Shown: in pieces, positions 33,801 through 52,648 of the stretch
Numbering within the stretch: position 1 is the stretch's first letter
Layout of the letters: every line of letters starts with the position of its first letter
NCBI RefSeq assembly: GCF_009812055.1
Contig: NZ_WQNH01000045.1
Location: 1 to 64,000 of the forward strand
Direction of reading: 5' to 3'
From: Chelativorans xinjiangensis
GTDB lineage: Bacteria > Pseudomonadota > Alphaproteobacteria > Rhizobiales > Rhizobiaceae
DNA: 64,000 nucleotides
Program-made: the position numbers and the translations under genes
Notes under the pieces: generated by a model
Told to the model about the DNA's origin: nothing
Seen by the model: only the letters and a program-made list of their open reading frames with translations
Database searches by the model: none

Positions 33801-33813
33801 CTGGTCGGACCAG
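33801..33813. promoter_or_regulatory. TGGT-N3-ACCA operator before the M24 gene
   Basis: CTGGTC-G-GACCAG, a perfect 13-bp palindrome 43 bp before the M24 start codon. Member of a five-site family with 40223, 40401, 50424 and 50601; the core fits FadR-subfamily GntR regulators. Confidence 0.55.
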
Positions 33814-33855
33814 ATGCGCCCGCCCGTCAGGCGCATGATTGAGAGGAGGAGCGTT

Positions 33856-35037
33856 ATGCAGGCGGAAAGCGGCTTGGCCCTGGAAGTCCCGTTCGACACG
33901 GAGCGGCTCGACCGGCTGATGGAGGGGGCGGGCATCGACGTGCTCCTGACAACGTCGAAGCACAACACGCAGTACTTGCTGGGCGGCTACAAGTTCATCT
34001 TCTTTGCCGCGATGGATGCCATCGGCCATAGCCGCTATCTCCCCATCGTCATCTATGAGAAGGGACGGCCGGAGCGGGCGGCCTACATCGCCAACCGCAT
34101 GGAGGGCGGCGAGCACCAGAACAAGCCGTTCTGGACGCCAGCATTTCACCCCGCCGCCTGGGGTACCCTGGATGCCGCCGAAGTGGCGGTGGAGCATATC
34201 GGGAAGATCGGCGGGGCGGGCCGGCGCATCGGCATCGAGCCGGCCTTTTTGCCGGTGGACGCCTACCGGCTGTTGAACGCCCGGCTGGAGGGCGCCTCTT
34301 TCGTCGATGCCACGGGCGCGCTGGAACGCATGCGCGCGATTAAGACGCCCGTTGAACTGGAAAAACTGCGTCTGGCGTCGGAGCTGATCACGGATTCGAT
34401 GCTGGCGGCGATCGGCTGGGCGCGCGAGGGCACCACGAAGGCCGAGATCATCGAGCGGCTGCGCCGGGAAGAGACGGAACGCGGCCTGACCTTCGAATAT
34501 TGCCTGCTGACGCTGGGCGCCAGCCACAACCGCGCCGCCTCACCGCAAGCCTGGAGGCGGGGCGAGGTGCTGTCGATCGATTCCGGCGGCAACTACCATG
34601 GCTATGTCGGCGACCTTTGCCGCATGGGCGTTCTCGGCGAGCCGGATGCGGAGCTTCAGGATTTGCTGGCGGAGGTGGAAGCCGTGCAGCAGGCGGCTTT
34701 CTCCAAGGTGAGGGCTGGTACGCTGGGCGGCGATATGATCGCCCGCGCGCAAGAGACCCTGAAGTCCTCGCCCGGCGCCGCCTTCACGGATTTCTTCGCT
34801 CACGGCATGGGGCTGATCACCCACGAGGTGCCGTTTCTGATGACCAACCACCCCGTTACCTACGAAGGCGTCGATGCCGCGCGCCCGCTGGAGGCGGGCA
34901 TGGTGCTCTCGGTGGAGACGACCATGCTCCATCCCACCCGCGGCTTCATCAAGCTCGAAGACACGCTGGCGGTGACGGCCGACGGCTATGAGATGTTCGG
35001 CAACCGTGGCAGGGGATGGAACAGGGGCGGGGGGTGA
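33856..35037 (+). CDS. M24 family metallopeptidase (Xaa-Pro aminopeptidase/creatinase fold)
   Basis: A 393-residue enzyme. The N-terminal creatinase-like domain (VLLTTSKHNTQYLLGGYKF) is followed by the pita-bread domain with all five metal ligands in place: Asp in SIDSGGNY and GDLCRMG, His in AHGMGLITHEVP, Glu in SVETTM and in KLEDTL. It hydrolyses Xaa-Pro bonds or related amides such as creatine-like compounds. ATG 33856 follows GAGGAGG. The frame is open back to 33793, but that crosses the operator at 33801. Confidence 0.9.
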   Translation: MQAESGLALEVPFDTERLDRLMEGAGIDVLLTTSKHNTQYLLGGYKFIFFAAMDAIGHSRYLPIVIYEKGRPERAAYIANRMEGGEHQNKPFWTPAFHPAAWGTLDAAEVAVEHIGKIGGAGRRIGIEPAFLPVDAYRLLNARLEGASFVDATGALERMRAIKTPVELEKLRLASELITDSMLAAIGWAREGTTKAEIIERLRREETERGLTFEYCLLTLGASHNRAASPQAWRRGEVLSIDSGGNYHGYVGDLCRMGVLGEPDAELQDLLAEVEAVQQAAFSKVRAGTLGGDMIARAQETLKSSPGAAFTDFFAHGMGLITHEVPFLMTNHPVTYEGVDAARPLEAGMVLSVETTMLHPTRGFIKLEDTLAVTADGYEMFGNRGRGWNRGGG

Positions 35038-35042
35038 CGCTC

Positions 35043-35142
35043 TAGACCAGTTCATCGTTTCATGGAATCGATGAACTGGTCTAACTCCTTGTTTGTCGCA
35101 GTTCCGGACGGAAAACCGGTTTCCACTTTTCCTGGAATTGCT
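35043..35142. repeat. Palindromic interspersed element, copy 1
   Basis: A 15-bp perfect stem (35043-35057 with 35069-35083, loop TTTCATGGAAT) is followed by CCGGACGGAAAACCGG and TTTTCCTGGAATTG, a second palindrome. It ends exactly at the stop codon of the cytochrome c gene. The sequence is nearly identical, in the same orientation, to 35560-35667. It is of the type widespread between rhizobial genes and may serve as a 3' transcript end. Confidence 0.85.
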
Positions 35143-35475
35143 CTATTCCGGCATCTCGACCGTGATATTGATCGACGAATACCAGGCTGCGACGTTCGCG
35201 ATATCGTCGTCCGTGAGGTCCTTCGCCACCACGTCCATCATCTCGTTCGTCCGCTTGCCTGAGCGGAAAGCCTTCAACTGCGTCTGCAGATAGATCTCGC
35301 TTTCGCCCGCCAGATGAGGCGCGACGGGGATTTGTGCGATCCCGTCGAGCCCGTGGCACGTGCGGCATTGGGCGCTTGCGATCTGCCGGCCCGCCTGCAT
35401 ATCGCCGGCAGCGGCCACGCCCGTTAGTGCCGCGAGGCCAAATGCAGTGAAAAGCAGTTTGATGATCGATGCCAT
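35143..35475 (-). CDS. Small class I c-type cytochrome
   Basis: About 110 residues from ATG 35475 (MASIIKLLF); ATG 35487 adds four. A signal peptide (LLFTAFGLAALTGVAAAG) and one haem-binding C-R-T-C-H are present. The distal Met is probably in TNEMMDVVA. It is a periplasmic electron carrier. The neighbouring same-strand PQQ-type sugar dehydrogenase at 35678 is the likely electron donor. Confidence 0.88.
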   Translation of the reverse strand: MASIIKLLFTAFGLAALTGVAAAGDMQAGRQIASAQCRTCHGLDGIAQIPVAPHLAGESEIYLQTQLKAFRSGKRTNEMMDVVAKDLTDDDIANVAAWYSSINITVEMPE

Positions 35476-35559
35476 TTCAGTGCCCAATAGAAGGCGCCCG
35501 CCGCTTGGCGGCAGGCGACGCTTGAATGGATGCCCCCGTACGGGAAACGCAAGAGGCCG

Positions 35560-35667
35560 CTCGACCAGTTCATCGTTTCATGGAATCGACGAACTGGTCT
35601 AACTCTTTGTTTTGTCGCAATTCCGGACGGAAAACCGGTTTCCACTTTTCCTGGAATTGCTCTCGTG
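35560..35667. repeat. Palindromic interspersed element, copy 2
   Basis: Direct repeat of 35043-35142, differing at a handful of positions (GACGAACTGG instead of GATGAACTGG, TTTGTTTTG instead of TTGTTTG). It ends about 10 bp from the stop codon of the sugar dehydrogenase gene. The two copies bracket the cytochrome c gene. Confidence 0.85.
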
Positions 35668-35677
35668 CCCACCCTTC

Positions 35678-36928: not shown

Positions 36929-37086
36929 TGCTTCCTCCCAGAGCTTGCGTGCGGATGACGCAGTCCAATGTCGACCGAAACCCGGGAAATGACAATCGTC
37001 GTCATGCCACGAATGGCCGCACAGGCGGCTGCCTGTCCATTCCGCATCGGTCTTGAGCCACGCTCGCCCGGCGGGGAGTTTCGTTC

Positions 37087-37503
37087 CTATCCCTTTGCCG
37101 GCACAAGCCGGAAGTCGGGCAGTTCCCGCAGCGCCTGCTCGGGTCCGGCCGGGGCGTAGACCACGAAGAGCCGCATCGGGCCGTCGCCCGTGTTGAGCGT
37201 CGAGTGGTAGCGGCTTTCGGGTACGTAGACCGTGCAGCCGGGGCGCACCTCGCGTACGACCGGGTTGCCTTCCTCGTCCTCGACCATCTGCTCGCCGGTG
37301 CCGGCGATCACGAAGATGATCTCCTCCGCGCCGGGGTGGTTGTGGCGGGCGTGGCCCTGGCCTTTCTCGAGATCGACCACGCCGCCGGAAAAGCGCCCAG
37401 CGCCGTTTACTTCCGGCCCCACCGTCAGGGCCAGGCGGCCCCAATCGAAGGCGAAGGTGTCGACCTCCTCCGGATAGACGAAGATCCTTTCCATGCCGCT
37501 CAT
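37087..37503 (-). CDS. Cupin domain protein
   Basis: A 138-residue single-domain cupin. Metal-ligand residues are seen in HARHNHPGAEEIIFVIAGTGE (cupin motif 1) and in the YHSTLNTGDGP region (motif 2 His). It starts one base after the stop of the TIM-barrel gene upstream, so it belongs to the Tm-1-like operon. It may isomerise or oxidise a sugar-like intermediate; no specific function is claimed. Confidence 0.88.
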   Translation of the reverse strand: MSGMERIFVYPEEVDTFAFDWGRLALTVGPEVNGAGRFSGGVVDLEKGQGHARHNHPGAEEIIFVIAGTGEQMVEDEEGNPVVREVRPGCTVYVPESRYHSTLNTGDGPMRLFVVYAPAGPEQALRELPDFRLVPAKG

Positions 37504-37504
37504 C

Positions 37505-38359
37505 TCATCCTCCCGCTGAAGCTGGCATCCGCAATGGCAGTGCCTTGAAGCTGGCGATCTGATCGCGGATCGCTACCTCGGCCGGCAGGCGCTCCATCGA
37601 GCTGGCGCCGTAGAAGCCGTGGCAACCTTCGGCGCGCTCCAGGACGTAGCGCGCGTCTTCCGGCATGGCGATCGGCCCGCCGTGACACAAGACGATGACA
37701 TCCTCGCGCACCGTGCGCGCGGCGGCGGCGATGGTCTCGATCTCGGCAACGCATTCGTCGAGGGACTTGGCCGAGGTGGCACCGATCGTGCCGCCGGTGG
37801 TCACGCCCATATGGGCGACGACGATATCGGCACCGGCCTTGGCCATGGCGGCGGCCTCGTCCGTGTTGAAGACATAGGGCGTCGTCAGAAGGTCGAGTTC
37901 GTGGGCGGCGGCTATCATGTCGACCTCGAGGCCGTAGCCCATGCCGGTCTCCTCGAAACTCTGCCGCATACGGCCGTCGAACAGGCCGATGGTGGGGAAA
38001 TTCTGCACACCCGAAAAGCCCATCGCCTTCAATTCGGCCAGGAACTGCGGCATCAGCACGAAGGGGTCGGTGCCGTTGACGCCGGCCAGAACCGGGGTGT
38101 TCCTTACCACCGGCAGCACCTCGACGGCCATCTCCCTGACGATCTCGTTGGCGTTCCCGTAGGCGAGCAGGCCGGCGGCCGAGCCGCGGCCGGCCATGCG
38201 GTAACGGCCGGAATTGTAGATGATGATGAGGTCGATGCCGCCGGCCTCCTCCGCCTTGGCCGAAAGGCCGGTGCCCGCGCCGCCGCCGACGATTGGCCGG
38301 CCCTCGGCGATCATCGCGCGGAATTTCTCCAGAATAGTCTTGCGGGGGATGGCGGGCAT
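37505..38359 (-). CDS. Phosphoenolpyruvate hydrolase family TIM-barrel protein (Tm-1 C-terminal domain type)
   Basis: About 284 residues of the TIM-barrel family Pfam PEP_hydrolase (old name TIM-barrel signal transduction). Typical segments are [52 protein letters not shown] and [19 protein letters not shown]. In plants this domain is fused behind a UPF0261 domain in the Tm-1 resistance protein; here the two are separate neighbouring genes. A GTG at 38371 overlapping the upstream stop is an alternative start. The natural reaction is not established. Confidence 0.88.
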
Positions 38360-38367
38360 GCGGGGTC

Positions 38368-39465
38368 TCACTTTCTGACCATTTCGAGGAAGGCGGCGAC
38401 CGCCGCCTCGGCGAATTCGGGATCGTTGATATTGAACGGCAAGCGCTCGATGCGCCGGTTGGCGGCGGGCTTCAGCGCGCTCTCGATGCCGGCGAAAAGC
38501 TCCGCGTCGGCCTCGGGATCGAAGAACGCGCCGCCCTCGATGTCGAGGGCGGAGACGCCCTTTTCCGGAATGAGGAAGCGCAATGGCCCCTCGCAGGCGT
38601 CAAGCCGCGTGCCGATCCATTCGCCGATGGCGCGGCACTCTTCGGCATTCGTGCGCATCAGTGTCACGTTGGGGTTGTGGCGGTAGAGATTGCGGTTGCG
38701 ATACCGTTCCGGCACCGTCTCCGGCGCCCAGAAGTTGACCATGTCGCAGGCACCCGGCGCGCCGACGTAAGGCAGCCTGGTGCGCGCCACGGCGCCGAAG
38801 CGATCCTCCGTTGCGGGCAGCACGCCGCCGAATAAGAGATCGCAGACCTCGGTGGTGGTGATGTCGAGGAGGCCGGCGAGCATGGCGCTGTCGGCGAGTT
38901 TTTCCATGGTGCGCCCGCCGGTGCCGGTGGCATGGAAGACCATGCAGTCGTAGTCGTCGCGCAGGCGCTGCGTGATCGACGTTACGCAGGGCGTGGTGAC
39001 GCCGAACATGGTGAGCCCGAGCGCCGGCTTTCCTTCCGCCCGCGGTGCCGGGCGCATGGCCATGCCGGCGATGGCTTGCGCCGCGTTGTGCAGGATGGTG
39101 CGGCTCAAGCCGTTGAGGCCGGCCATGTCGGTCACCGACGGCATCATGATGATGTCGGAAATATCGACATAAGGGGTGGTATCGCCGGAAGCGAGCGTGG
39201 AGACCATCAGCTTGGGCACGCCGTAGGCAAGCCGCCGCATGCCGGTGGTGACGATCGACGTGCCGCCACCGCCGCCGATGCCGATCACCGCGGCGACATC
39301 CTCGCGCTCGGCGATGAAATTGGCGAAGGCCTCGCCCATCGCCGCGACCGCCTTGCCGCGGTCGTCGCCGCCGAGTACCGCCTCGACGCCCGCTGGATGG
39401 TGCGCGGCGACCTCGGCGGCACTTACCTCGACCTCCACAGTGCGATCCTGACAGATGGTCCCCAT
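38368..39465 (-). CDS. Tm-1-like ATP-binding (UPF0261) protein, N-terminus missing
   Basis: A 365-residue frame. The second half of the family fold is intact ([64 protein letters not shown]). Family members known to me are about 400 residues and open with a G-T-x-D-T-K-G-x-E nucleotide-site motif; that is absent. The only start, ATG 39465, has no ribosome site and lies inside the loop end of a perfect 20-bp palindrome (39439-39481). I read this as a 5'-truncated gene, possibly inactive. It is otherwise tightly linked to the PEP-hydrolase-like and cupin genes. Confidence 0.8.
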
Positions 39466-39481
39466 CTGTCAGGATCGCACT
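39439..39481. repeat. Perfect 20-bp palindrome with 3-nt loop at a gene breakpoint
   Basis: AGTGCGATCCTGACAGATGG (39439-39458) and its exact reverse complement (39462-39481) flank TCC. The left arm is coding sequence of the UPF0261 gene (minus strand), so the right arm is an inverted copy of that gene's own bases. The pattern fits a fold-back rearrangement or an assembly artefact. Confidence 0.9.
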
Positions 39482-39567
39482 ACCAGATTAATAGCTCGCC
39501 CCGCTCGCCGCGGCTCCTCCCGAAAGAATGCCGTTGCAAATTTTTGAGACACGCGTATCATATTGAT

Positions 39568-40209
39568 ATGGACGTCTCACGTCAACAATCGGAACTGGTG
39601 GAGGAGACCGAGCGGGGCCCGCGGGCGCGAACCCGGCGGTTGATGCTGGAGACGGCGACGCGGTTGATGCAGGCCGGCGCCACGCCGTCGGTCAGCGAGG
39701 TGGCGGAGGCTGCCGGCGTGTCGCGCGCCACCGCCTACCGCTATTTCCCCAGCCAGGCCGCGCTCGTGCACGCGGTGGTCGACGAGGCGCTGGGGCCGAT
39801 CCTGACTTGGCGGTCGACATCGGATAGCGCCGGTGAGCGCGTGGCCGATCTTTTCGCGTTCTCGCTGCCGCGCATCGAGGAGTTTGAAGCCACCTTCAAG
39901 GCAGCGCTGAAACTGTCGCTGGAACAGTGGGCGCAGCGCCAGACAGGTTCTCTGGACAACGAGCCGCAGTTCACGCGCGGCCACCGCGTCGACCTTCTGC
40001 GGCAGGCGTTGGCGCCACTTAAGGGCGAGCTTTCCAAGGGGCAGATCGACCGGCTGGCGCAGGCCCTGTCGTTGACCTTCGGCGTCGAGACGCTGATTGT
40101 TCTGAAGGACATCTGGGGCCTCGATGCCGGCCGGACGCAGGCCGTGGCGCAATGGGCGGCGAGCGCGCTCGTGCGCGCAGCGGTGGAGGAGGCAAAGTCC
40201 GCGAAGTAG
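39568..40209 (+). CDS. TetR family transcriptional regulator
   Basis: A 213-residue regulator with the helix-turn-helix TPSVSEVAEAAGVSRATAYRYFPSQAALVHAVV near residues 30-65 and a helical ligand domain. ATG 39568 overlaps a 13-bp palindrome (TATCA-TAT-TGATA, 39556-39568), and TGAGAC/GTCTCA arms lie at 39546 and about 39573; either could be an autoregulatory site. It is divergent from the truncated UPF0261 gene, so it may once have controlled that operon. Confidence 0.87.
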   Translation: MDVSRQQSELVEETERGPRARTRRLMLETATRLMQAGATPSVSEVAEAAGVSRATAYRYFPSQAALVHAVVDEALGPILTWRSTSDSAGERVADLFAFSLPRIEEFEATFKAALKLSLEQWAQRQTGSLDNEPQFTRGHRVDLLRQALAPLKGELSKGQIDRLAQALSLTFGVETLIVLKDIWGLDAGRTQAVAQWAASALVRAAVEEAKSAK

Positions 40210-40222
40210 GGAGAGTGGAAGG

Positions 40223-40241
40223 AATCTGGTTCGACCAGATT
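40223..40241. promoter_or_regulatory. TGGT-N3-ACCA operator, distal site of the ABC operon
   Basis: AATCTGGT-TCG-ACCAGATT, a perfect 19-bp palindrome just after the TetR gene and about 325 bp before the binding-protein gene. The 357 bp between the two genes (40210-40566) hold this site, the promoter at 40386 and a GGGAGG ribosome site, with no other gene seen. Confidence 0.6.
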
Positions 40242-40385
40242 GGGTTTTTATCGAAAAGTCTGAAATAATGCGGTTGATCCTTTACAAGCCGCAAGCCCGA
40301 TCCTGATCGAGCGAGAGGAGCAAGAAAGGCCAGAATACAAGGATGTATTGAGAAGGATCAGCGGGAGGAACGCGCTACAAAGAGC

Positions 40386-40417
40386 TTGACGGAACTTTAC
40401 ATTTGGTAATACCAGAT
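40386..40417 (+). promoter_or_regulatory. Promoter with overlapping TGGT-N3-ACCA operator
   Basis: A -35 TTGACG (40386-40391) stands 18 bp before the operator core TGGT-AAT-ACCA (40404-40414, flanks ATT and GAT), which covers the expected -10 position. The promoter at 50586 has the same geometry. Repression by a GntR-type protein is implied. Confidence 0.6.
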
Positions 40418-40566: not shown

Positions 40567-41877
40567 ATGCGCATGAAACTGACCGGCATGCTCGCCGGAA
40601 TAGGCCTTGCTTTGTCCAGCGGAACGTCCGTGTTCGCGCAGGAACTCACCATCTTCTGGGCCGAATGGGATCCCGCCAACTATTTGCAGGAACTGGTCAA
40701 CGAGTACACGGCCGAAACCGGCGTCACGGTCAGGGTCGAGACGACACCCTGGGCGGACTTCCAGACCAAGGCTTTCGCCGAGTTCAACGCGCACGGTGAC
40801 GCCTATGACCTGGTGGTCGGCGATTCACAGTGGCTGGGGGCCGGCTCGGAGGGCGGACACTATGTCGATCTGACCGAGTTCTTCGAGGAGCACAAGATCG
40901 CAGAGACCTTCGTGCCGGCGACGGTCAGCGCCTATGCCGAGTATCCGAAAGCCAGCGGCAAGTACTGGGCGGTTCCGACGGAGGGCGACGCCAATGGCTG
41001 GGCCTACCGCAAGGACTGGTTCGAGGACCCGGAAGAGATGGCCGCCTTCAAGGAGAAATACGGCTACGACCTCGACGTGCCGAAGGACTACAAGCAACTC
41101 CGCGACATCGCCGAGTTCTTCCATCGCCCGGACGAGGGCCGCTACGGCATCGCCCTTTATACCGACAACTCCTATGACGGCCTGATCATGGGTGTGGAGC
41201 AGACGATCTTCACTTATGGCGGCGAGCTCGGCGACTACGAGACGTTCCAGGTCCAGGAGGTCACGAACTCGCCCGAGAACGTCGAAGCGCTCGAGATGTA
41301 CCGCGAGCTCTATGAGTTCACGCCGCCCAACTGGGGCAAGACTTTCTTCCTTGAGAACAACCAGGCCATTACCGAGGGCCTGGCGGCGATGAGCATGAAC
41401 TATTTCGCCTTCTTCCCGGCGCTCGCCAATCCGGCGACCAACCCGAACGCGGATTCCACCGGCTACTTCGTCAATCCGCCCGGACCGACGGGCGCGCAAC
41501 ATGCCGCTCTCGGTGGCCAGGGGCTGTCGATCGTCAGCTATTCGCAGAACCAGGAAGAAGCCTTCAAGTTCCTGGAGTGGTTCATCCAGGAGGACGTGCA
41601 GAAGAAGTGGGCCGAGCTCGGCGGCTACACCTGCCATGCGGCGGTTCTGGAATCGGAGGAGTTCCGCAACGCCACGCCGTTCAACGAGGCCTTCTACCAG
41701 TCGATGCAGATCGTGAAGGACTTCTGGGCGGTGCCGGAATACGCGGAGTTGCTCACCCAGATGAACAACCGCGTCTATCCCTTTGTGGTCGGCGGCGAGG
41801 GCACCGCGAAAGACGCCCTCGACGGGCTCGCCGCGGATTGGGAAGAGACATTCAAGAGGTATGGCCGTCTGAAATAG
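40567..41877 (+). CDS. ABC transporter sugar-binding protein (family 1)
   Basis: A 436-residue periplasmic receptor. The signal peptide MKLTGMLAGIGLALSSGTSVFAQ is followed by ELTIFWAEWDPANYLQELVNEYTAETG, the usual family-1 opening. ATG 40567 follows GGGAGG; the frame is open to 40429, but that stretch lacks a signal peptide. Receptor for the CUT1 system encoded to 46492. Operator context suggests its ligand is the sugar acid handled by the block at 46561-53422. Confidence 0.92.
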   Translation: MRMKLTGMLAGIGLALSSGTSVFAQELTIFWAEWDPANYLQELVNEYTAETGVTVRVETTPWADFQTKAFAEFNAHGDAYDLVVGDSQWLGAGSEGGHYVDLTEFFEEHKIAETFVPATVSAYAEYPKASGKYWAVPTEGDANGWAYRKDWFEDPEEMAAFKEKYGYDLDVPKDYKQLRDIAEFFHRPDEGRYGIALYTDNSYDGLIMGVEQTIFTYGGELGDYETFQVQEVTNSPENVEALEMYRELYEFTPPNWGKTFFLENNQAITEGLAAMSMNYFAFFPALANPATNPNADSTGYFVNPPGPTGAQHAALGGQGLSIVSYSQNQEEAFKFLEWFIQEDVQKKWAELGGYTCHAAVLESEEFRNATPFNEAFYQSMQIVKDFWAVPEYAELLTQMNNRVYPFVVGGEGTAKDALDGLAADWEETFKRYGRLK

Positions 41878-41932
41878 GGGCGGGGAAGGCGGAGGGGGCG
41901 CCTGCTCCCTCCGCCTCTCAAGCAACTTGCCG

Positions 41933-42865
41933 ATGACTGACGTGGAAAGGAACCGGGTCGTGACGACGGTCGCCCTTGAAAGGCTGGATCCCCGCTCGCG
42001 CGCTGCCGCCCGCGGCTGGAGCGATCTTACGATCCGCAACATGTTCATCATTCCGACGATCGTCTTCCTGATCGTCTTCAACATCTTCCCGCTGCTCTAT
42101 TCGCTCGGCTATTCCTTCACCGACTTTCGCGCGTCGGTCAGTGCGCCGGCAAATTTCGTCGGCCTCGACAACTATCAGCGGCTCCTTTCCGACCCGAACA
42201 TCTGGCGCAACTTCACGGTGACGGCGAAATACGTGATCGTCTCGGTCGGCGGGCAGATGATCGTCGGCTTCGGCGTGGCGCTCCTGCTCAATCGCAGCTT
42301 CCCCTTCAAGGGCTTTGTGACGACGCTGCTGCTTCTGCCGATGATGATGTCGATGGCGGTCGTCGGCCTTTTCTGGAAGCTGCTCTACGATCCGTCCTGG
42401 GGCATCATCAATTACGCCCTTGGCCTTGGCCGGTTCGACTGGCTGTCCAACCCCGACATGGCGCTCTACGCGGTGGCCATCACAGATATCTGGATGTGGT
42501 CGCCCTTTGTGATGCTTCTGTCGCTGGCGGGCCTCTCGGCCGTGCCGAAGCATCTCTACGAGGCGGCGGCGATCGACCGTGCCAGCAACTGGTACACCTT
42601 CACCCATATCACGCTGCCGCTGGTATCGCCGCTTCTCCTCATCGCCCTCATCTTCCGCACGATGGAGGCGTTCAAGAGTTTCGACCTTCCCTTCATCATG
42701 AGCGGGCAGCCGACCACCGAGGTGGTCGCCATACGCCTCTACAAGATGGCCTTCCAGGAATGGCAGACCGGGCTTTCCTGCGCGCTCGCCTACATCATGC
42801 TGATCGTCGTGATCGCGATCACCAACATCTACGTCAAATATCTGAACCGCGTGAAGGAGCGCTGA
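41933..42865 (+). CDS. Carbohydrate ABC transporter permease (MalF/UgpA type)
   Basis: About 310 residues. The first membrane helix is MFIIPTIVFLIVFNIFPLLYSL, and the EAA loop is EAAAIDRASNWYTFTHITLPLV near residue 208. ATG 41933 (MTDVERNR) is preferred over TTG 41927. One base separates it from the next permease gene. Confidence 0.92.
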   Translation: MTDVERNRVVTTVALERLDPRSRAAARGWSDLTIRNMFIIPTIVFLIVFNIFPLLYSLGYSFTDFRASVSAPANFVGLDNYQRLLSDPNIWRNFTVTAKYVIVSVGGQMIVGFGVALLLNRSFPFKGFVTTLLLLPMMMSMAVVGLFWKLLYDPSWGIINYALGLGRFDWLSNPDMALYAVAITDIWMWSPFVMLLSLAGLSAVPKHLYEAAAIDRASNWYTFTHITLPLVSPLLLIALIFRTMEAFKSFDLPFIMSGQPTTEVVAIRLYKMAFQEWQTGLSCALAYIMLIVVIAITNIYVKYLNRVKER

Positions 42866-42866
42866 G

Positions 42867-43823
42867 ATGGCCGCCGTCAAGACGCCGCGTCAGAAGGTGG
42901 CGAACCAGCTGGCCATCGCGGCCGTCATCGTCATCGCCATCATCTTCCTGGCTCCGATCTATTGGATCGGCTCCACGGCCTTCAAGCCGCGGGCGCTCGC
43001 CACCACCGTGCCGCCGACCGTTCTCTTCCAGCCGGAGGTCACGCCCTTCGTCAAACTGTTCACCAGGCGCGTCCAGCTCAACCGGCCGGTCGAGCCCGGA
43101 GCCTACGAGGCCGCGCCCTGGTGGGAAAAGCGGATCTATGACGGCGGCGAGCGGGTGCTGCGCGTGGGCGAGGATGTGCAGCTCTCCGGCTATCCCGATC
43201 GTTTCCTGAACAGCCTGATCATTGCCGTCACCAGCACCCTCCTCGCCGTCTCGATGGGCACGCTGACGGCTTACGGGTTCTCGCGCTTCAGAGTGGCAGG
43301 CGAGCAGGACTGGCTCTTCTTCATCCTGTCGACGCGCATGCTGCCGCCGGTCGTCGTGGCGATCCCGATGTTCCTCATGTACCGCGTCGTGGGCATGACC
43401 GACACGCATATCGGCCTCATCATCCTCTACACCGCCTTCAATCTCTCCTTCTCGGTGTGGCTCATGAAGGGCTTCATCGACGAGATCCCGAAGGAATACG
43501 AGGAGGCCGCGCTGGTCGACGGCTACACGCGCATGCAGGCCTTCTTCAAGATCGTGCTGCCGGAGGCGGCCACAGGCATCGCCGCAACGGCCGTCTTCTG
43601 CTTCATCACGGCCTGGAACGAATATGCCTTCGCGCTGATGATGACCAACCGGCGCGCCCAGACCGCGCCGCCCTTCATCCCCGCCCAGGTCGGTTCCGGC
43701 TTGACCGACTGGACGACGATCGCCGCCGGCACGTTCCTGTTCCTGCTGCCGGTCGCCATCTTCACGTTCCTGCTTCGCAACCATCTGCTGCGCGGCATGT
43801 CCTTCGGAGCGATACGCAAATGA
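42867..43823 (+). CDS. Carbohydrate ABC transporter permease (MalG type) with enlarged first loop
   Basis: A 318-residue permease with EAA loop EEAALVDGYTRMQAFFKIVLPEA. It is longer than the usual 275-280 residues because of about 40 extra residues after helix 1 (FTRRVQLNRPVEPGAYEAAPWWEKRIYDGG), predicted periplasmic. Its stop overlaps the ATG of the 73-residue gene. Confidence 0.92.
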   Translation: MAAVKTPRQKVANQLAIAAVIVIAIIFLAPIYWIGSTAFKPRALATTVPPTVLFQPEVTPFVKLFTRRVQLNRPVEPGAYEAAPWWEKRIYDGGERVLRVGEDVQLSGYPDRFLNSLIIAVTSTLLAVSMGTLTAYGFSRFRVAGEQDWLFFILSTRMLPPVVVAIPMFLMYRVVGMTDTHIGLIILYTAFNLSFSVWLMKGFIDEIPKEYEEAALVDGYTRMQAFFKIVLPEAATGIAATAVFCFITAWNEYAFALMMTNRRAQTAPPFIPAQVGSGLTDWTTIAAGTFLFLLPVAIFTFLLRNHLLRGMSFGAIRK

Positions 43824-44041
43824 GCTTCCGCAGGCTGAACCGGAAATATCTCGTGCCGGGGGCGCAGACCGTGATGATCCTCGGCATCGCCGCGCTTTGC
43901 CAGCCCTGGAACCTGTTCCTGCATCGCTACGGCGTGACGATCACCCTCATCGGGCTCGTGGCCTTCATCATCACCTCCCATATCGGGCCCGAGCAGGAGG
44001 CGCCCGAAGAGGACACGCGTGACGGGAGGCTGGCGGAATGA
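43820..44041 (+). CDS. Small two-helix membrane protein of the ABC operon
   Basis: A 73-residue protein with two hydrophobic segments (TVMILGIAALCQPWNLFLH and VTITLIGLVAFIITSHIG) and an acidic tail (EQEAPEEDTRDGR). It overlaps by ATGA both the permease gene before it and the ATPase gene after it, so translation is coupled. I do not recognise a named family. The position suggests an accessory subunit of the transporter. Confidence 0.8.
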   Translation: MSFRRLNRKYLVPGAQTVMILGIAALCQPWNLFLHRYGVTITLIGLVAFIITSHIGPEQEAPEEDTRDGRLAE

Positions 44042-45147
44042 CGCATATCGAGCTTCGCGGCGTGCAAAAATTTTTCGGCGAGGTTCAGGTCATCAAGGAC
44101 ATGAACCTTGTCATTGAGGACAACGAGTTCATCGTCATGCTGGGGCCGTCGGGCTGCGGCAAGACGACGACGCTGCGCGCCGTCGCCGGCCTCGAGACGA
44201 TCGACGAGGGCGACATCCTGATCGACGGCAAGGTGGTGCAGCATCTGAAGGCCGCCGACCGCGACATCGCCTTCGTGTTCCAGTCCTTCTCGCTCTACCC
44301 GCACATGACTGTCTACGAGAACATCGCCTTCCCGCTGCGCGCGACGCGGCAGAGCAAGGCGGAGGTCGACCGGGCGGTGCGCCAGGTGGCGGACGTGCTG
44401 CGGATCGCGCCGCTCCTGAAGCGCCGGCCGTCGGCCCTGTCGGGCGGCGACATGCAGCGCGTGGCGATCGGCCGTGCGCTGGTGCGCAGTCCCAAGGCGC
44501 TTTTGATGGACGAGCCCATCGGCGCGCTCGACGCCAAGCTGCGTGAGGAGATGCGCACCGAAATAAAGCGCCTGCACATGAAGCAGGGCTCCACCACCAT
44601 CTACGTCACCCACGACCAGGTGGAGGCGATGGCACTCGCCGACCGCATCGTCATCATGAACGACGGCGTGCTGCAGCAGGTGGGCACGCCGGACGACGTC
44701 TATACCCACCCCGCCAATCTCTTTGTCGCACAGTTCGTCGGCAGCCCGGTGATGAACGTTGCGGAAGCGCACGTGGCCGAGACGGCGTCGGAAGCCCGCG
44801 TCGTCATGCCGGGCGCGGCAGAGGGTTTTGTCTTCCCGCGAACTCTTCTCGGCCGGCTCGAAGCTGGCGGAGCGAAGGGGGACGGTCTCGCGCTCGGCAT
44901 CCGCCCTGAGGGCGTGCTTGTCGAGCGCGAGCGCCGGGAGGGCTACCTGCCGGTCGAGGCACACATCATCGAGCCGCTCGGCTCGCACGATATCATCGAC
45001 CTCAAGGTCGGCACGCAGATGCTGAGGGCACGCACAAAGGCCGGTTTCGTGCCGCGCCCAGGCGAAAAAGTGTGGGTCAGGATCGATCCCGCCCAGGCGC
45101 ATTTCTTCGATGCGGAAAGCGGCAGGTCTTTCGGGGTGAGGTTGTGA
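44038..45147 (+). CDS. Sugar ABC transporter ATP-binding protein 1
   Basis: A 369-residue CUT1-type ATPase: Walker A GPSGCGKTT, signature LSGGDMQRV (D-M in place of the usual Q-R or Q-Q), Walker B LLMDEPIGALD and switch His in VTHDQVEAM. A C-terminal TOBE-type domain follows (LGIRPEGVLVE). It is one of two ATPases in this operon; they probably form a heterodimer. Confidence 0.93.
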   Translation: MTHIELRGVQKFFGEVQVIKDMNLVIEDNEFIVMLGPSGCGKTTTLRAVAGLETIDEGDILIDGKVVQHLKAADRDIAFVFQSFSLYPHMTVYENIAFPLRATRQSKAEVDRAVRQVADVLRIAPLLKRRPSALSGGDMQRVAIGRALVRSPKALLMDEPIGALDAKLREEMRTEIKRLHMKQGSTTIYVTHDQVEAMALADRIVIMNDGVLQQVGTPDDVYTHPANLFVAQFVGSPVMNVAEAHVAETASEARVVMPGAAEGFVFPRTLLGRLEAGGAKGDGLALGIRPEGVLVERERREGYLPVEAHIIEPLGSHDIIDLKVGTQMLRARTKAGFVPRPGEKVWVRIDPAQAHFFDAESGRSFGVRL

Positions 45148-45186
45148 TGGCAATGCGCCCGGTGTTGCAAGGATTATACGGCGGTG

Positions 45187-45358
45187 TCCCTTCGCGCCCC
45201 CCTCTGTCCTGCCGGACATCTCCCCCACGAGGGGGGAGATCGGCCATCGCGGACGGCTTCGCTAATCGCCAACATTGCAGAAGAAATGCCGGAGCAAGCG
45301 GCCGGCACAATCTCCCCCCTTGTGGGGGAGATGTCCGGCAGGACAGAGGGGGGCAACA
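45187..45358. repeat. RIME-like palindromic element between the two ATPase genes
   Basis: Left arm CCCCTCTGTCCTGCCGGACA then TCTCCCCCACGAGG (about 45200-45233) is the near-exact inverse of GTGGGGGAGATGTCCGGCAG then GACAGAGGGG (about 45321-45353). The centre (GCGGACGGCTTCGC, GCCGGAGCAAGCGGCCGGC) contains smaller palindromes. This is the full-length form of the element whose half lies at 65-120. It occupies most of the 265-bp gap in an operon whose other joints overlap or nearly touch. Confidence 0.88.
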
Positions 45359-45412
45359 TAGAGCGCCTGCTTCCCGATTTTGTCGCCCTCGCGCCGTGGG
45401 AGCGCTCTGAAG

Positions 45413-46492
45413 ATGGCCCATATCGAGCTGAAAAACACCACAAAGAAGTTCGGTGCCACGACCGCTCTCCGCAACCTGGACCTGGAGATCGCCGACGGCG
45501 AGTTCTTCGTCCTGCTCGGCGAGACGGGGGCAGGCAAGACGACGACGCTGCGGCTGATCGCCGGCCTGGAAAGGCCGACCGAAGGGCAGATCCTCATCGA
45601 TGGCGCGGATGTCAGCAACTGGGGACCGGCCGAGCGCGACGTGGCGCTGGTGCTGCAGCAATACTCGCTCTATCCGCGCTATACGGTGCGCGAGAACCTC
45701 GAATTTCCGCTGAAGGCGAAGATCCGGCATGTCGAGCCGGAGGAGATAAGGAATCAGGTGGCCCGCGCAGCAAAAATCCTGCGCATCGAGCACCTGCTCG
45801 ACCGCAAGACGGACAGGCTGTCGGGCGGCGAGATGCAGCGTGTCTCCATCGGCCGCGCCATCGTGCGCAGGCCGCGCGTCTTCCTGATGGACGAGCCGCT
45901 GTCCGCACTCGACGCCAAGCTGCGCGAGGCGCTGCGCACGGAACTGAAAAACCTGCAGATGACGCTCGGCGCCACCTTCCTCTTCGTCACGCATGACCAG
46001 ATCGAGGCCATGTCGATGGGCGACAAGATCGGCGTTTTGGACAGGGGCCGACTGGTGCAGACGGGCACGCCCTACGAGATCTACAACAATCCGCGCAGCA
46101 CCTTCGTCGCCCGTTCCGTTGGTTCGCCGCCGATGAACCTCCTCGACGGCCGGCTGGTGGAAGGACGGGCGGTCGTCGCGCCGAAGCGTTTCGAGTTGCC
46201 GCTGAACGGGCAGGCAGGCGCAGTTTCGGAAGGGCGCCCGCTCGTCTTCGGCATTCGCCCGGAAGACCTCACCGTGGAGCCCGGCGCGCCCGTCGAGGCG
46301 ACGGTGCACGACGTGGAGAACCACGGCGTCGAAAAAATCCTCACCCTGCGTGCCGGCGATGCCATGCTGCACGCCACCGTTTCCGCCCGGATGAACGTCG
46401 CGGTGGACGAGACGGTGCAGTTCGCGTGGAACCCCGAAAAGGTTGTCCTTTTCGATGATGCCAGCGGCTTGAGCCTGCGGCACGGAGGGTAG
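45413..46492 (+). CDS. Sugar ABC transporter ATP-binding protein 2
   Basis: A 359-residue ATPase with the Walker A variant GETGAGKTT, signature LSGGEMQRV, Walker B FLMDEPLSALD and switch His VTHDQIEAM. The TOBE-type end is FGIRPEDLTVEPG. It differs clearly from ATPase 1 and is not a recent duplicate. ATG 45413; the frame open to 45380 has no start signal. End of the operon; no clear terminator is seen in the 68 bp before the convergent dehydrogenase gene. Confidence 0.93.
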   Translation: MAHIELKNTTKKFGATTALRNLDLEIADGEFFVLLGETGAGKTTTLRLIAGLERPTEGQILIDGADVSNWGPAERDVALVLQQYSLYPRYTVRENLEFPLKAKIRHVEPEEIRNQVARAAKILRIEHLLDRKTDRLSGGEMQRVSIGRAIVRRPRVFLMDEPLSALDAKLREALRTELKNLQMTLGATFLFVTHDQIEAMSMGDKIGVLDRGRLVQTGTPYEIYNNPRSTFVARSVGSPPMNLLDGRLVEGRAVVAPKRFELPLNGQAGAVSEGRPLVFGIRPEDLTVEPGAPVEATVHDVENHGVEKILTLRAGDAMLHATVSARMNVAVDETVQFAWNPEKVVLFDDASGLSLRHGG

Positions 46493-46560
46493 GCGGCTGT
46501 CGGTACGCCGGGAATAGGGCCGGGGGGCTGCCGCAGCCGACCGGCCTGGCCCAACTCACG

Positions 46561-47529
46561 TCACTGAAATCGCTTCCGATAAAGCTCCATCGCCTCCGGA
46601 TTGCAAAGGTTCTTGGGCAATTGTCCGTCGAGCACCCGGATCGCCTCTTCAGCCGCGCCCGTTCCCATCCTCATCATGCTTTCCTCAGTGATGCCGGCGG
46701 CGTGCGGCGTGAGGATGACGTTGTCGAAGGTGAAATAGGGATGATCGGCCGGCAGCGGGTGGGAATCGAAAACGTCGAGTGCGGCACCCGCAATGCGGCC
46801 CTCGCCAAGGGCGGCGATGAGCGCCTCCTGGTCGACGACGGGGCCGCGCGAGACGTTGACGAGCAGGGCCGAAGGCTTCATGCGCGCGATGCGCTCCCGG
46901 CTGATGAGACCCCGCGTGTCGGGCGTCAGCGGGCAGCACAGCACGATGATGTCGCTTTCCTCGATGAGCTGGTCGAGGTTTGCCGGTCGCGCACCCTCGG
47001 GCAGGGTGGCGGGCGTGCGCGTGTTGACCACGAGGTCAAGACCGAAACCTCGTGCGACGCGGAAGACGGCGCGGCCCACATTGCCCATGCCGACGATACC
47101 CATAGTGCGGCCGCCGAGTTCGGCGCCGTGGTCGGCATGGGCACGGCCGGCAAACCATCCCGTCGCCCTCAGGTCGCGGTCCATGCGGCGGAAACGCCGG
47201 AGAAGCGCCAGCGTGACCAGGAAAACATGCTCGGCCACCGTTCGTGCGTTGGCGCCCGGGACGTTGGCGACCAGCACGCCGGCCGCCGTCGCCGCCTCGA
47301 CCGGGATCATGTCGAGCCCGGCGCCGTGGCGGATGGCGGCGCGCAGGCGGGGTGCGGCGGAAAAGAGCGAGGCCGGCAACGGCGCGCGGACGATGACGAT
47401 ATCGGCTTCGCGGCCTTCCTCAAGCAGCGTCTCGGGATCGGCGTTGCTCGCAATGCGCAGCTCGCCGGCCTCGGCCAGCATGGCCTCCGCGCGCGGATGA
47501 AGCGCGTTGGTGGAAAGGATAACCGGCAA
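46561..47529 (-). CDS. D-isomer-specific 2-hydroxyacid dehydrogenase
   Basis: About 322 residues. The NAD motif is MGIVGMGNVGRAVF. The catalytic Arg is in NVSRGPVVDQEAL, the Glu/Asp in the DVFDSHPLP region, and the His in LTPHAAGITEES. It oxidises or reduces a 2-hydroxy acid such as glycerate or a keto-sugar acid. The start is unclear: TTG 47529 (LPVILSTNALHP) lies 11 bp after the GntR stop; no ATG fits. Last gene of the minus-strand block. Confidence 0.85.
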   Translation of the reverse strand: MPVILSTNALHPRAEAMLAEAGELRIASNADPETLLEEGREADIVIVRAPLPASLFSAAPRLRAAIRHGAGLDMIPVEAATAAGVLVANVPGANARTVAEHVFLVTLALLRRFRRMDRDLRATGWFAGRAHADHGAELGGRTMGIVGMGNVGRAVFRVARGFGLDLVVNTRTPATLPEGARPANLDQLIEESDIIVLCCPLTPDTRGLISRERIARMKPSALLVNVSRGPVVDQEALIAALGEGRIAGAALDVFDSHPLPADHPYFTFDNVILTPHAAGITEESMMRMGTGAAEEAIRVLDGQLPKNLCNPEAMELYRKRFQ

Positions 47530-47540
47530 AGGACCCGTAC

Positions 47541-48245
47541 CTATGCTTGCTCGACCGCCCCGGACTCTACGCCGCCGATCAGGCCCTTCCAATAGCTCTC
47601 CGCCCCCTTGAGATGCGCGCTCATCAGGGCTTGCGCCAGATTGCCGTCGCGGCGCTGGAGCGCCTCGTAGATTTGGATGTGCTCGGCGTGCGAGCGCCGC
47701 GCGCGCTCCGGGTCGCTGAAATAGATCGGCAGGCGCTGTTCGCCCATCAGATAGTAGACGCTGCAGACCTTGTGGAAAACGCTGTTCTGGGTGGCGCGTA
47801 CGATCTCCAGATGGAAGTCGCGGTCCTCCCGCCACAGGCCTTCGCCAGCGGCAAGCCGCTGCTCCGAGGCGTTCAGGATCTCGCGCAGCCGCTCGAAATT
47901 TTCCTCCGTCGCGCGTTCGCAGGCAAGCTCCGCCGCCTTGATCTCGTGGATCTTGCGCAATTCCACCGTCTCATAGATCTGGATCGGGTCGAGCGGCACG
48001 CCGGCTCTGGCGAACAGCGCCATCGCCTCGACGCTCGCCTGGTTCGTCGTAAGATAGATGCCGGATTTTGCACGGCGCTCGACGATGCGCATGGCCTCGA
48101 GGATCGCCAGGGCCTCGCGGACCTGGCCACGGCTAACGGCAAAATGCTCGGCCAGCTCGCGCTCGGACGGCGTGCGCCCGTTCGCTGCATTGGAGCGGGA
48201 ATAGAGATAGGCTGCCAGGTCCGGCAGGAGGTTGTTCTCCTTCAT
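47541..48245 (-). CDS. GntR family regulator, FadR/FCD subfamily
   Basis: A 234-residue regulator. The winged helix is GRTPSERELAEHFAVSRGQVREALAILEAMRIVERR. The FCD domain has the expected Asp/His set (EDRDFHLEIV, RSHAEHIQIYEAL, SAHLKGAESYW), which binds a metal and an acid ligand in this family. It overlaps the enolase-superfamily gene by ATGA. Best candidate to bind the TGGT-N3-ACCA sites at 33801, 40223, 40401, 50424 and 50601, giving one regulon for uptake and breakdown. Confidence 0.9.
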   Translation of the reverse strand: MKENNLLPDLAAYLYSRSNAANGRTPSERELAEHFAVSRGQVREALAILEAMRIVERRAKSGIYLTTNQASVEAMALFARAGVPLDPIQIYETVELRKIHEIKAAELACERATEENFERLREILNASEQRLAAGEGLWREDRDFHLEIVRATQNSVFHKVCSVYYLMGEQRLPIYFSDPERARRSHAEHIQIYEALQRRDGNLAQALMSAHLKGAESYWKGLIGGVESGAVEQA

Positions 48246-49414
48246 GGGCTCTTCTGCGCGTGCGCCTCCAGGAACTTTTCGCGTACCGTGAAGCCCAGGC
48301 CCGGCTTTTCCGGAATCCGGACCATGCCATCGCTCGCCTCCACCTTTTCCTCGATCAGGTCGTGGATCATGGGATTGGCGCCGAGGGAATATTCGACGAT
48401 GAAACTCGCCGGCGAGGCCGCGCATACATGCAAGCCGGCGAAGAAACAAGGCGCCCCGGCCCACAAATGCGGCGCCAGCCGCAGGTTGAAGGCACTGGCA
48501 AGCGCGCCGATATGCATGGCCTCGGTGATGCCACCGCAGAAGCCGGGATCGGGCTGGAAGATGTCCGCGGACCTAAGAAGCGCAAGCTCGCGGAAAGCGA
48601 ACCGCGTTGCCTCGCTCTCGCCGGCAGCCACCGGAACGCTGCTTGAGGCGCGCACCTCCGCCATGCCCCTCTTGTCGTCGGCGATCACCGGCTCCTCGAA
48701 CCAGGCAAGGTCGCAGTCGGCGACGAGATGGGTGAAGCGCTTTGCCTCGGCCACGGTATAGGTGCCGTGCGCATCCGCCATCAGATCGATATCCGGACCG
48801 AGGGTTGCCCGTGCCGCGCGCACCCGCGCGGCCGAGACCTGCACCGGCCCGTCCTGGGCGCCGACGCGCATCTTGACCGCCTTGAAGCCGCCCGTCTCGA
48901 CATAGGCCAGCAATTGTTCGCCGATCGTCTCCGGCCCCGCCCAGCCGCCGGAGGCATAGGCCGGCAGGCGCTCGGCCTTGCGGCCGCCGAGAAGCCGCCA
49001 GACCGGCTGGCCGAGGGATTTGCCCAGAATGTCCCACAATGCGATGTCGACGGCACTGATGGCCGCCACCGTCAGCCCGCGCCGGGCGAGTATCGGCATG
49101 GCGTGGCCGCTGGATGCCGCCGTCTCGTGGCGCGCGTCGTTATAGAGCATCTCCCAGATGACGCTTATATCGGCCGGGTCGCGGCCGATCAGCCTCGGGC
49201 CGATCTCGTGGTTGAGAAGGTAGACGAGGGCGGCGTAGGTGCCGGCACTTCCCGCGGCGTTCTTGCCTTCCCCCCAGCCGACGAGGCCGTCATCGGTCGT
49301 AATCCGCAGGATCGCCGCGTCGAAGGTGGCCGTCTGGCCGAAATCGCTGCGGTGCTGGCGACCTTCCTCGATGGGTATGCGCACCCACCACGCCTCTACT
49401 TGTCTGATCCGCAT
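48242..49414 (-). CDS. Mandelate racemase/muconate lactonizing enzyme family protein
   Basis: A 390-residue enolase-superfamily enzyme. The barrel shows KMR in AVKMRVG (Arg at the second K of the usual K-x-K), metal ligands Asp in LMADAHGTY, Glu in WFEEPV and Glu in AAGESE, and a His in LAPHLWAG. Such enzymes dehydrate or cycloisomerise sugar acids. The K-x-R variant makes a simple mandelate-racemase assignment unsafe. Between an epimerase-like gene and its regulator, it is probably the dehydratase step of the block. Confidence 0.9.
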   Translation of the reverse strand: MRIRQVEAWWVRIPIEEGRQHRSDFGQTATFDAAILRITTDDGLVGWGEGKNAAGSAGTYAALVYLLNHEIGPRLIGRDPADISVIWEMLYNDARHETAASSGHAMPILARRGLTVAAISAVDIALWDILGKSLGQPVWRLLGGRKAERLPAYASGGWAGPETIGEQLLAYVETGGFKAVKMRVGAQDGPVQVSAARVRAARATLGPDIDLMADAHGTYTVAEAKRFTHLVADCDLAWFEEPVIADDKRGMAEVRASSSVPVAAGESEATRFAFRELALLRSADIFQPDPGFCGGITEAMHIGALASAFNLRLAPHLWAGAPCFFAGLHVCAASPASFIVEYSLGANPMIHDLIEEKVEASDGMVRIPEKPGLGFTVREKFLEAHAQKSP

Positions 49415-49444
49415 GCCCGTTCCCCGACCCGCCGCCTGGTGCCG

Positions 49445-50332
49445 CTACCTGATGAGCGGCAGGATGGTCTCGGCCGTGATCCGCATCTGGTCGGAATAGA
49501 ACTCCTCCGTCAGCAGGCTGGAGCCGTGATCCTGGATGAACTTGAGCTGCTCGGGCGGGATGTCGACCGGATTGCGCTCCACCATGTTCGGATATTTCGC
49601 CGCCGGCGTGCGGTCGACGGGCGCAACGAACTCGTTGGTGAGCGCGCCGTCATAGCCGATCTCCTTCAGCGTGCCGACGATCTTTTCCCAGTCGAGCATT
49701 CCGAGCCCGCAGGCGAAGCGGTTGTTGTCGGCCACGTGGAAGTCGTAGAGGCGCTTTCCGGCAAGCCGGATCGCCTCGTACATGTCCTCTTCCTCGATGT
49801 TGAGGTGGAAAGCGTCGAGACAGACACCGCAGTCGGGATGCACCGCGTCCGCCAGGGCGAGGGCCTGCGCCGCGCGATTGAAGAGATAGGTCTCGAAGCG
49901 GTTGAGCGGCTCGATCGCCACGCGCACACCTTTGGCCTGGGCATGGGCGAAGCACTCCTTGGTGGCATCCACCACCCATTTCCACTCTTCCTCCTCGGTA
50001 CCGTCCGGCACGACCTTGCCGACCGTCGCCGGCACCAGGGTAATGATCTCGCCGTCCAGCTCCGAGACCATGGTGATGACGCTCTTCACGTAGTCGACCG
50101 AACGGGCGCGCTGGCCTTCGTCCCTGGCCGCCAGATTGCGCTCGCCGAGCGTCAGCGTCACCGCACCCCAGCAGCGTATGCCGTGCTCCTTGAGGGCTGC
50201 ACGGGTCTCACTCGGGTCGTACTGGTCGGGCTCACCCGAAATCTCGATGCTCTCGTAGCCGAATTTCTTGATCCGCCGCAGCGTCGTTTCCAGCGGCTCC
50301 GCACGCATCCAGTTGTGCGTCGAAAGATGCAT
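49445..50332 (-). CDS. Sugar phosphate isomerase/epimerase (tagatose 3-epimerase-like)
   Basis: About 295 residues; TIM barrel with metal ligands Glu in AIEPLNRFETY, Asp/His in CLDAFHLNIEEEDM, His in DFHVADNNR and Glu in LTNEFV. This is the set of ketose 3-epimerases. ATG 50332 (MHLSTHNW) has GGGGAGG upstream; ATG 50347 is less likely. First gene of the minus-strand block, divergent from a second member of the family at 50654. Confidence 0.88.
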   Translation of the reverse strand: MHLSTHNWMRAEPLETTLRRIKKFGYESIEISGEPDQYDPSETRAALKEHGIRCWGAVTLTLGERNLAARDEGQRARSVDYVKSVITMVSELDGEIITLVPATVGKVVPDGTEEEEWKWVVDATKECFAHAQAKGVRVAIEPLNRFETYLFNRAAQALALADAVHPDCGVCLDAFHLNIEEEDMYEAIRLAGKRLYDFHVADNNRFACGLGMLDWEKIVGTLKEIGYDGALTNEFVAPVDRTPAAKYPNMVERNPVDIPPEQLKFIQDHGSSLLTEEFYSDQMRITAETILPLIR

Positions 50333-50423
50333 GATGTTCCTCCCCAATCCGATACTTGCGCTTGCGCAGGACTGAAAGCCGGCGCGCCTTTACCTCCTCA
50401 AGCCGCCCCAGCATTTCGGCTAA

Positions 50424-50436
50424 CTGGTTCGACCAA
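50424..50436. promoter_or_regulatory. TGGT-N3-ACCA operator, minus-strand block
   Basis: Core TGGT-TCG-ACCA at 50425-50435, 92 bp before the start of the minus-strand operon. It shares the spacer TCG with the 40223 site. The 321 bp between the divergent genes (50333-50653) hold this and the 50601 site and show no other gene. Confidence 0.55.
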
Positions 50437-50585
50437 ATATGCATGGAAGGAAGCTCTAGCGCACTTTTCACCTTGCAGCAAGCAGGCGGGGAGGGAAGTT
50501 CTGGGAAGCGCGGTTCCCTTATATTTCCATGTGATTTCGCGCTCTTTCGGCTTTGAACCTGACCGTCAGCGCAGCCGGTGTGTCC

Positions 50586-50617
50586 TTGACCCATTCGTCA
50601 TTTTGGTATTACCAAAA
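50586..50617 (+). promoter_or_regulatory. Promoter with overlapping TGGT-N3-ACCA operator, plus-strand block
   Basis: A -35 TTGACC (50586-50591) lies 18 bp before the core of TTTTGGT-ATT-ACCAAAA (50601-50617), a perfect 17-bp palindrome over the expected -10. Geometry is identical to the 40386 promoter. Confidence 0.62.
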
Positions 50618-52647: not shown

Positions 52648-52648
52648 C

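Follow-up and report, generated by a model that had tools for sequence, protein, structure and literature searches.

Results and discussion

The locus and its predicted operators

The DNA analysed here, to which we refer as the window, is a stretch of 64,000 nucleotides from the alphaproteobacterium Chelativorans xinjiangensis (contig NZ_WQNH01000045.1, positions 1 to 64,000). It harbours genes for an ATP-binding cassette (ABC) importer with a sugar-type solute-binding protein (SBP), two ketose 3-epimerase-like enzymes (TIM1 and TIM2), an acid-sugar-dehydratase-like enzyme (MR_MLE), a 2-hydroxyacid dehydrogenase and an M24 peptidase, and a gntR gene (Table 1). Judged from sequence, the GntR protein is very probably a repressor of the FadR subfamily, which binds the palindrome AWYTGGT-N3-ACCARWT at five operators and controls four units, with the genes just named as its predicted targets. 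The arrangement appears to be genuine, though of a common type; we infer direct binding, the operon structure, repression rather than activation, and the nature of the inducer.

The window contains six exact TGGT-N3-ACCA cores, whereas 100 dinucleotide shuffles gave 0.30 on average and at most 3. One of them, at 16634, lies within a coding frame that by eye resembles an aldehyde dehydrogenase and was treated as a chance occurrence. The other five are all intergenic, which amounts to five per 916 intergenic bases (a total that depends on our choice of gene starts) where 0.005 would be expected from the remaining genome. These five sites had been claimed in a sequence-only reading of the window, and indeed all cores are exact and the central triplets CGG, TCG, AAT, TCG and ATT are as it gave them, except that the first site begins at 33802 and not at 33801. 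The A/T-rich flanks that it described are likewise borne out by the 134 site instances which we tabulated, where a Y/R step adjoins the core.

Extended by its flanks to WYTGGTN3ACCARW, the pattern has eight matches in the complete own genome (5,689,708 bases), against four for the control, and five of the eight are the operators themselves. A wider regulon in this genome was considered and dismissed, the three other extended matches (C44:26436, C86:80908 and C100:2100) not exceeding the control count. The core at C44:26438, which belongs to the first of these, is the sole one of 29 other own-genome cores with all six flank positions fitting, and is situated between genes that by eye are DJ-1/PfpI-like and DUF805-like. 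At C86:80910, a core lies 34 bp ahead of an FCD-type match (C86:80262-80876), as expected of an autoregulated paralog.

Table 1. Predicted regulatory sites and genes of the locus, with positions in the window
Feature	Position	Strand	Remarks
Operator 1	33802..33812		TGGT-CGG-ACCA; 54 bp 5' of the M24 start
Operator 2	40227..40237		TGGT-TCG-ACCA; distal site of the ABC operon, 177 bp ahead of operator 3
Operator 3	40404..40414		TGGT-AAT-ACCA; importer-proximal, overlapping putative -10 (TAATAC)
Operator 4	50425..50435		TGGT-TCG-ACCA; TIM1 side, perhaps shortly past the TIM1 promoter
Operator 5	50604..50614		TGGT-ATT-ACCA; TIM2 side, overlapping putative -10 (TATTAC)
Putative -35 of the ABC operon	40386..40390	+	TTGAC; 18 bp before core 40404
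Putative -35 of TIM2	50586..50590	+	TTGAC; 18 bp before core 50604
TetR-type box	39545..39579		TGAGAC-N23-GTCTCA; overlaps TetR start, distinct from the GntR operator
M24 (creatinase/prolidase-type) peptidase-like	33856..35037	+	Pfam PF00557 and PF01321
Cupin/PEP-hydrolase/UPF0261 block	37087-39465	-	
TetR	39568-40209		
SBP of the ABC importer	40567..41877	+	Pfam SBP_bac_1/SBP_bac_8
Importer permeases (two)	41927-42865, 42867-43823	+	
Small protein of the importer operon	43820-44041	+	
Importer ATPases (two)	44038-45147, 45413-46492	+	
2-hydroxyacid dehydrogenase	46561..47508	-	Pfam 2-Hacid_dh; last in TIM1 operon
GntR/FadR-subfamily (FCD) regulator	47541..48245	-	234 aa; Pfam GntR and FCD
Enolase-superfamily, acid-sugar-dehydratase-like	48242..49414	-	Pfam MR_MLE
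TIM1, ketose 3-epimerase-like TIM barrel	49445..50332	-	Pfam AP_endonuc_2; PDB D-tagatose 3-epimerases; first in minus operon
TIM2, ketose 3-epimerase-like TIM barrel	50654..51505	+	PDB D-tagatose 3-epimerases
D-erythronate dehydrogenase (DenD)-like	51664..52647	+	NCBIfam NF043036, 366.5 bits (cut-off 325); behind TIM2

The regulator

The GntR protein consists of an N-terminal winged helix-turn-helix (HTH; PF00392, 43.3 bits, cut-off 27) and a C-terminal FCD domain (PF07729, 87.1 bits, cut-off 24.3). In an alignment of 24 GntR sequences, down to 60% identity, the HTH motif PSER..LA.HF.VSRGQ.RE is nearly invariant, and D141, H145, H189 and H211, which we take to be the FCD metal ligands, are invariant. 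The predicted fold of the monomer (mean pLDDT 84) matches FCD-type regulators including PmiR, NanR and Atu1419. The protein stays under the NCBIfam cut-offs for NanR (96.7 of 260 bits), UxuR (67.5 of 442) and LldR (66.9 of 311), and none was reached for ExuR, GlcC or PdhR either. A GntR gene had been placed at 47541 by the sequence-only reading; a GntR regulator with FCD domain is indeed encoded there, with the correction that 47541 is the stop end of this minus-strand gene.

Conservation of the operators among relatives

At a threshold of E<=1e-50, GntR orthologs were found in 83 of 394 genomes of the family, representing 33 of 109 genera. Four of 15 congeners possess the ortholog, and in all four these promoters retain their operators; the sole deviation from the exact core is a single base in the distal importer operator of G007. 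In the synteny comparison with the congeners, the matches of two of 22 query translations (PLD and PQQ dehydrogenase), which had been taken in a wrong frame, were set aside. To compare the sites more widely we used a set of 36 genomes (the own genome, four congeners and 31 other genera, with one stretch per genus) and scored the best core per promoter. The TIM2-side operator is exact in all 36 genomes, and the TIM1-side operator is exact in 30 and has one mismatch in the remaining six. Similarly, the importer-proximal operator is exact in 25 of 25 cases; for the distal one the figures are 17 exact and seven with one mismatch, the last case (G030) having been scored at a wrong anchor, as both sites of its importer pair are exact and lie 65 bp apart. 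Where a stand-alone M24 gene with upstream sequence was present, its operator is exact throughout (12/12). By chance, a stretch of 170 bases would contain an exact core with a probability of about 0.0009.

A second collection of 80 loci, mostly from Mesorhizobium and overlapping the 36-genome set, gave the same picture: among the 79 assessable loci the TIM2-side operator is exact in 79, and the TIM1-side operator is exact in 77 and has one mismatch in two. In G247 (L126), two exact TIM2-side cores occur at 15101 and 15133, 32 bp apart. The same cluster is present on pSymA of Sinorhizobium meliloti 1021 (gene identities via position and synteny with the annotated strain RCAM1750) and on pRL12 of Rhizobium johnstonii 3841, each with three exact cores, one at the TIM2 side and two at the importer, whereas the TIM1-side core has one mismatch. 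Altogether, the GntR ortholog was found in 122 plasmid records, i.e. 64 of Sinorhizobium, 56 of Rhizobium and two of Phyllobacterium.

Regulation versus linkage

Operators are also retained at a distance from gntR. Among 35 importer orthologs examined (of 80) the proximal operator is exact in every one and both operators in 33. Thirteen of these importers are far from gntR (eight on another contig, five at 42-83 kb on the same contig), and all 13 have an exact proximal site; nine importer paralogs yielded one single exact core, with flanks that do not fit. From the 82 M24 orthologs of gntR-bearing genomes, 23 were picked, mostly for their distance from gntR: 15 have an exact core, two a core with one mismatch and six no core within one mismatch. 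Exact cores were seen in 15 of 20 distant M24 orthologs (on a different contig, or 400 kb or more from gntR) as compared with none of six paralogs (P 0.002, a descriptive value). In G208, G143 and G045, three of four members of one genus, a further core with one mismatch lies 13 bp ahead of the exact M24 operator; the fourth, G263, has a one-mismatch core only. Across the 394 genomes, gntR co-occurs with 79 of 80 importers, 82 of 83 M24 genes and 83 of 84 TIM1 genes. Operator conservation, co-occurrence and retention at distance support the M24 gene, the two-ATPase ABC operon and both enzyme arms as predicted targets, as the sequence-only reading had proposed.

Several observations weigh against a regulon of this GntR protein. 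Without its flanks, the core shows no enrichment across the own genome, with 35 matches against 60 for the reversed-pattern control; we regard the local cluster as the signal. The sequence-only reading had made its proposal dependent on a site density above chance; this density is far above background next to the promoters (five against 0.005), but no such excess exists for the bare core genome-wide. The commoner control sequence would be in keeping with chance palindromes in GC-rich DNA, an explanation which the conservation across genera, the co-occurrence with gntR and the local density render virtually inconceivable. The M24 genes of G047, G095, G118, G189, G234 and G148 lack any core within one mismatch; of the two one-mismatch cores, that of G263 has fitting flanks and that of G287 does not. 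At the thresholds used, four genomes with gntR (G058, G148, G279 and G284) gave no importer match and one (G339) no M24 match. Each gntR-less exception to the co-occurrence is the same genome, G104, with exact importer and M24 sites and no gntR found; our own reading is an assembly gap, the assembly comprising about 770 contigs with TIM1 on a contig of 4.1 kb. Finally, the P values are descriptive, as neither shared ancestry nor, in the case of TIM1, physical linkage is taken into account, and different contigs in draft assemblies are no proof of distance.

A paralog could likewise bind these operators, since the core is the general signature of the FadR subfamily (PMC4494728) and a search of the own genome with the GntR query gave 18 more matches (E<=0.001). 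Two other exact cores indeed lie near paralog genes, at C86:80910 and at C72:20880 (2.5 kb away). It would follow that the operators are real but bound mainly by another FadR-subfamily protein, with the linked GntR being minor or redundant, which we consider very unlikely: the operators accompany this particular ortholog in the 32 genera examined, and gntR lies within a block that itself carries an operator. Moreover, in G011, the one congener with an M24 gene (at 79%) and without this ortholog or an importer ortholog, no M24 site within one mismatch was found, an absence that is a single case and as such tempers the argument for the linked GntR.

Promoter architecture and paired sites

A TTGAC box stands 17-19 bp 5' of the core in all 25 importer-proximal promoters and, at 18-19 bp, in 30 of 36 TIM2 promoters. 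The spacing of exactly 18 bp asserted by the sequence-only reading for two sites is therefore correct for both in the window and loosens to 17-19 bp among relatives. Positions 4-9 of the same two operators mostly read TAATAC, TACTAC, TATTAC or TATGAC, each a fair -10 hexamer. The N3 spacer would thus probably be part of the -10, with the promoter and not the protein dictating its sequence. The proposal that the operator covers the -10 agrees with the putative hexamers overlapping operators 3 and 5, a pattern kept among relatives. On the TIM1 side, TTG and TAGA, about 17 bp apart, both precede the operator in 19 of 36 genomes, so that this operator may lie just after the transcription start, which is a weaker reading.

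The importer operators are 165-180 bp apart in 22 of 25 genomes (the others 65, 143 and 184 bp) and the TIM operators 175-180 bp in 29 of 36. Helical phasing of the TIM pair is weak (Rayleigh P 0.0006-0.0012, uncorrected for ancestry) and was not detected for the importer pair (P 0.13-0.20). Strict helical phasing, which we had considered as proof of looping, is thus unsupported at the importer pair.

Most catabolic regulators of the FadR subfamily repress, and we assign this role to GntR as well. At the M24 and distal importer sites, where no overlap with a -35 or -10 was found, GntR might instead act as an activator or dual regulator. This seems rather unlikely, even though TTGAC at 17-19 bp is missing from both classes (0/12 M24 and 0/25 distal sites), as no promoter was recognised in either class and the position of the sites therefore says little. 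Paired sites, 190 bp apart, are also described for the FCD protein Atu1419 (PMC7797058), and would be compatible with such a role.

A second, TetR-type circuit

The UPF0261-PEP-hydrolase-cupin operon is, as far as its sequence indicates, outside the GntR regulon: no exact GntR core was found in the gap between UPF0261 and TetR in any of 21 genomes, and a one-mismatch core in three. Instead, the gap contains the palindrome TGAGAC-N23-GTCTCA, likely the TetR operator, which in the same number of genomes is exact in 11 and has one mismatch in seven, two in two and three in one; an exact box was not found in two S. meliloti stretches. That the TetR protein itself binds the nearby GntR-type operators was suggested by its stop codon, 18 bp ahead of operator 2. 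We reject this as extremely improbable on account of the different box conserved at the TetR start, the lack of exact GntR cores in the gap, and G028, which keeps the importer and TIM sites with no TetR match found in its stretch.

An inverted repeat of 19 bp, perfect and with a loop of three bases (TCC), spans the start of the UPF0261 frame (39440-39480). The first 30 aa of this frame do not align to those of congeners, and residue 31 lies 193 bp from the TetR start, compared with 258-351 bp in 20 relatives. The own UPF0261 5' end looks altered, or the assembly looks wrong at this point.

In ten of the genera compared the M24 gene is located behind the cupin gene, on the same strand and with no exact GntR core ahead of it. 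This apparent switch of M24 from one circuit to the other between genera suggests that the GntR and TetR circuits serve one pathway.

Proposed mechanism and implications

In the mechanism that we propose, GntR would shut four units. These are the M24 gene, the importer operon, the operon TIM1-MR_MLE-gntR-2-hydroxyacid dehydrogenase, and TIM2 together with its downstream genes. As gntR would be part of the repressed TIM1 unit, autorepression would follow. Lying over the -10 of the importer and TIM2 promoters, the operator would block RNA polymerase directly, and at TIM1 it may lie just past the start and act as a roadblock. The inducer that lifts repression would probably be an acidic intermediate that binds to the FCD metal site, and the UPF0261-PEP-hydrolase-cupin operon would be under the second, TetR-type circuit alongside. 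More tentatively, and with somewhat less than even confidence, we propose that both circuits jointly govern a single, hitherto undescribed catabolic pathway, which is maintained throughout Rhizobiaceae and which nodulating rhizobia carry on large plasmids. M24, in other genera under TetR, would have moved between the circuits and so mark both as belonging to the same pathway, and the paired operators would loop the DNA.

The UPF0261/PEP-hydrolase pair is known from plant Tm-1-like proteins. Neither this regulon nor a metabolic role of the pair was found among the listed papers, the search covering open-licence PMC papers, with RegPrecise outside its scope and with SMa and pRL12 gene numbers that were guesses. 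What began as the sighting of a motif has become a predicted regulon for which the targets and the layout of the promoters are defined and which has a second regulator as its neighbour. Because the cluster and most operators are present in S. meliloti 1021 and R. johnstonii 3841, the inducer can be sought by routine reporter assays in laboratory strains, and its identity would give a substrate to the transporter, to the two epimerase-like enzymes and perhaps to the UPF0261/PEP-hydrolase pair.

Assignment of the target genes

For the importer genes at 41927..46492, matches to UgpA/UgpC-like NCBIfam models are below cut-off, and the assignment was also made by synteny. Likewise, the top NCBIfam model of the MR_MLE enzyme, galactonate/arabinonate dehydratase, is under its cut-off. 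Nearest solved structures were tried as guides to the substrate: those of the SBP are sugar, trehalose and maltose binding proteins and hence uninformative, and many of those matching the MR_MLE enzyme have no assigned function. Behind TIM2, the DenD-like gene and an SDR gene (51664-53422) are present in the own genome and in G002, and were not found in the stretches of G008, G007 and G012; judged by this distribution, the pair is a lineage-specific addition under the putative operator 5.

Comparison with known systems

The two-ATPase, sugar-type importer GlpSTPQV of rhizobia resembles the importer described here in possessing an SBP, two permeases, a small protein and two ATPases per block. 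The comparison is one of gene layout, and the ATPases here fall under the UgpC cut-off. Among solved structures, the best match of the GntR protein in both sequence and fold is PmiR of Pseudomonas aeruginosa (PDB 7xp0/7xp1), at 26% identity in the fold alignment; here the comparison concerns the protein itself.

With the FadR subfamily (FadR, LldR, PdhR, GlcC, UxuR, DgoR and NanR) the regulator shares the combination of a GntR HTH and an FCD domain. According to PMC4494728, operators of this subfamily usually have a 3-nt GT-N3-AC spacing and TKGT/ACMA boxes. The sites here fit both, which is consistent with their binding by this protein; it differs from these regulators in its target genes and passes no NCBIfam cut-off of theirs.

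A further parallel is Atu1419, a VanR-type FCD repressor of Agrobacterium fabrum, for which PMC7797058 reports palindromes overlapping -10 boxes and proposes looping between the paired sites. Atu1419 differs in its palindrome (ATGTATACAT), in its genes and effector, and by an identity of only 18-20% in the aligned chains. Nevertheless, the FCD-type fold (structure match rank 7), the -10-overlapping palindromes and the paired sites are common to both.

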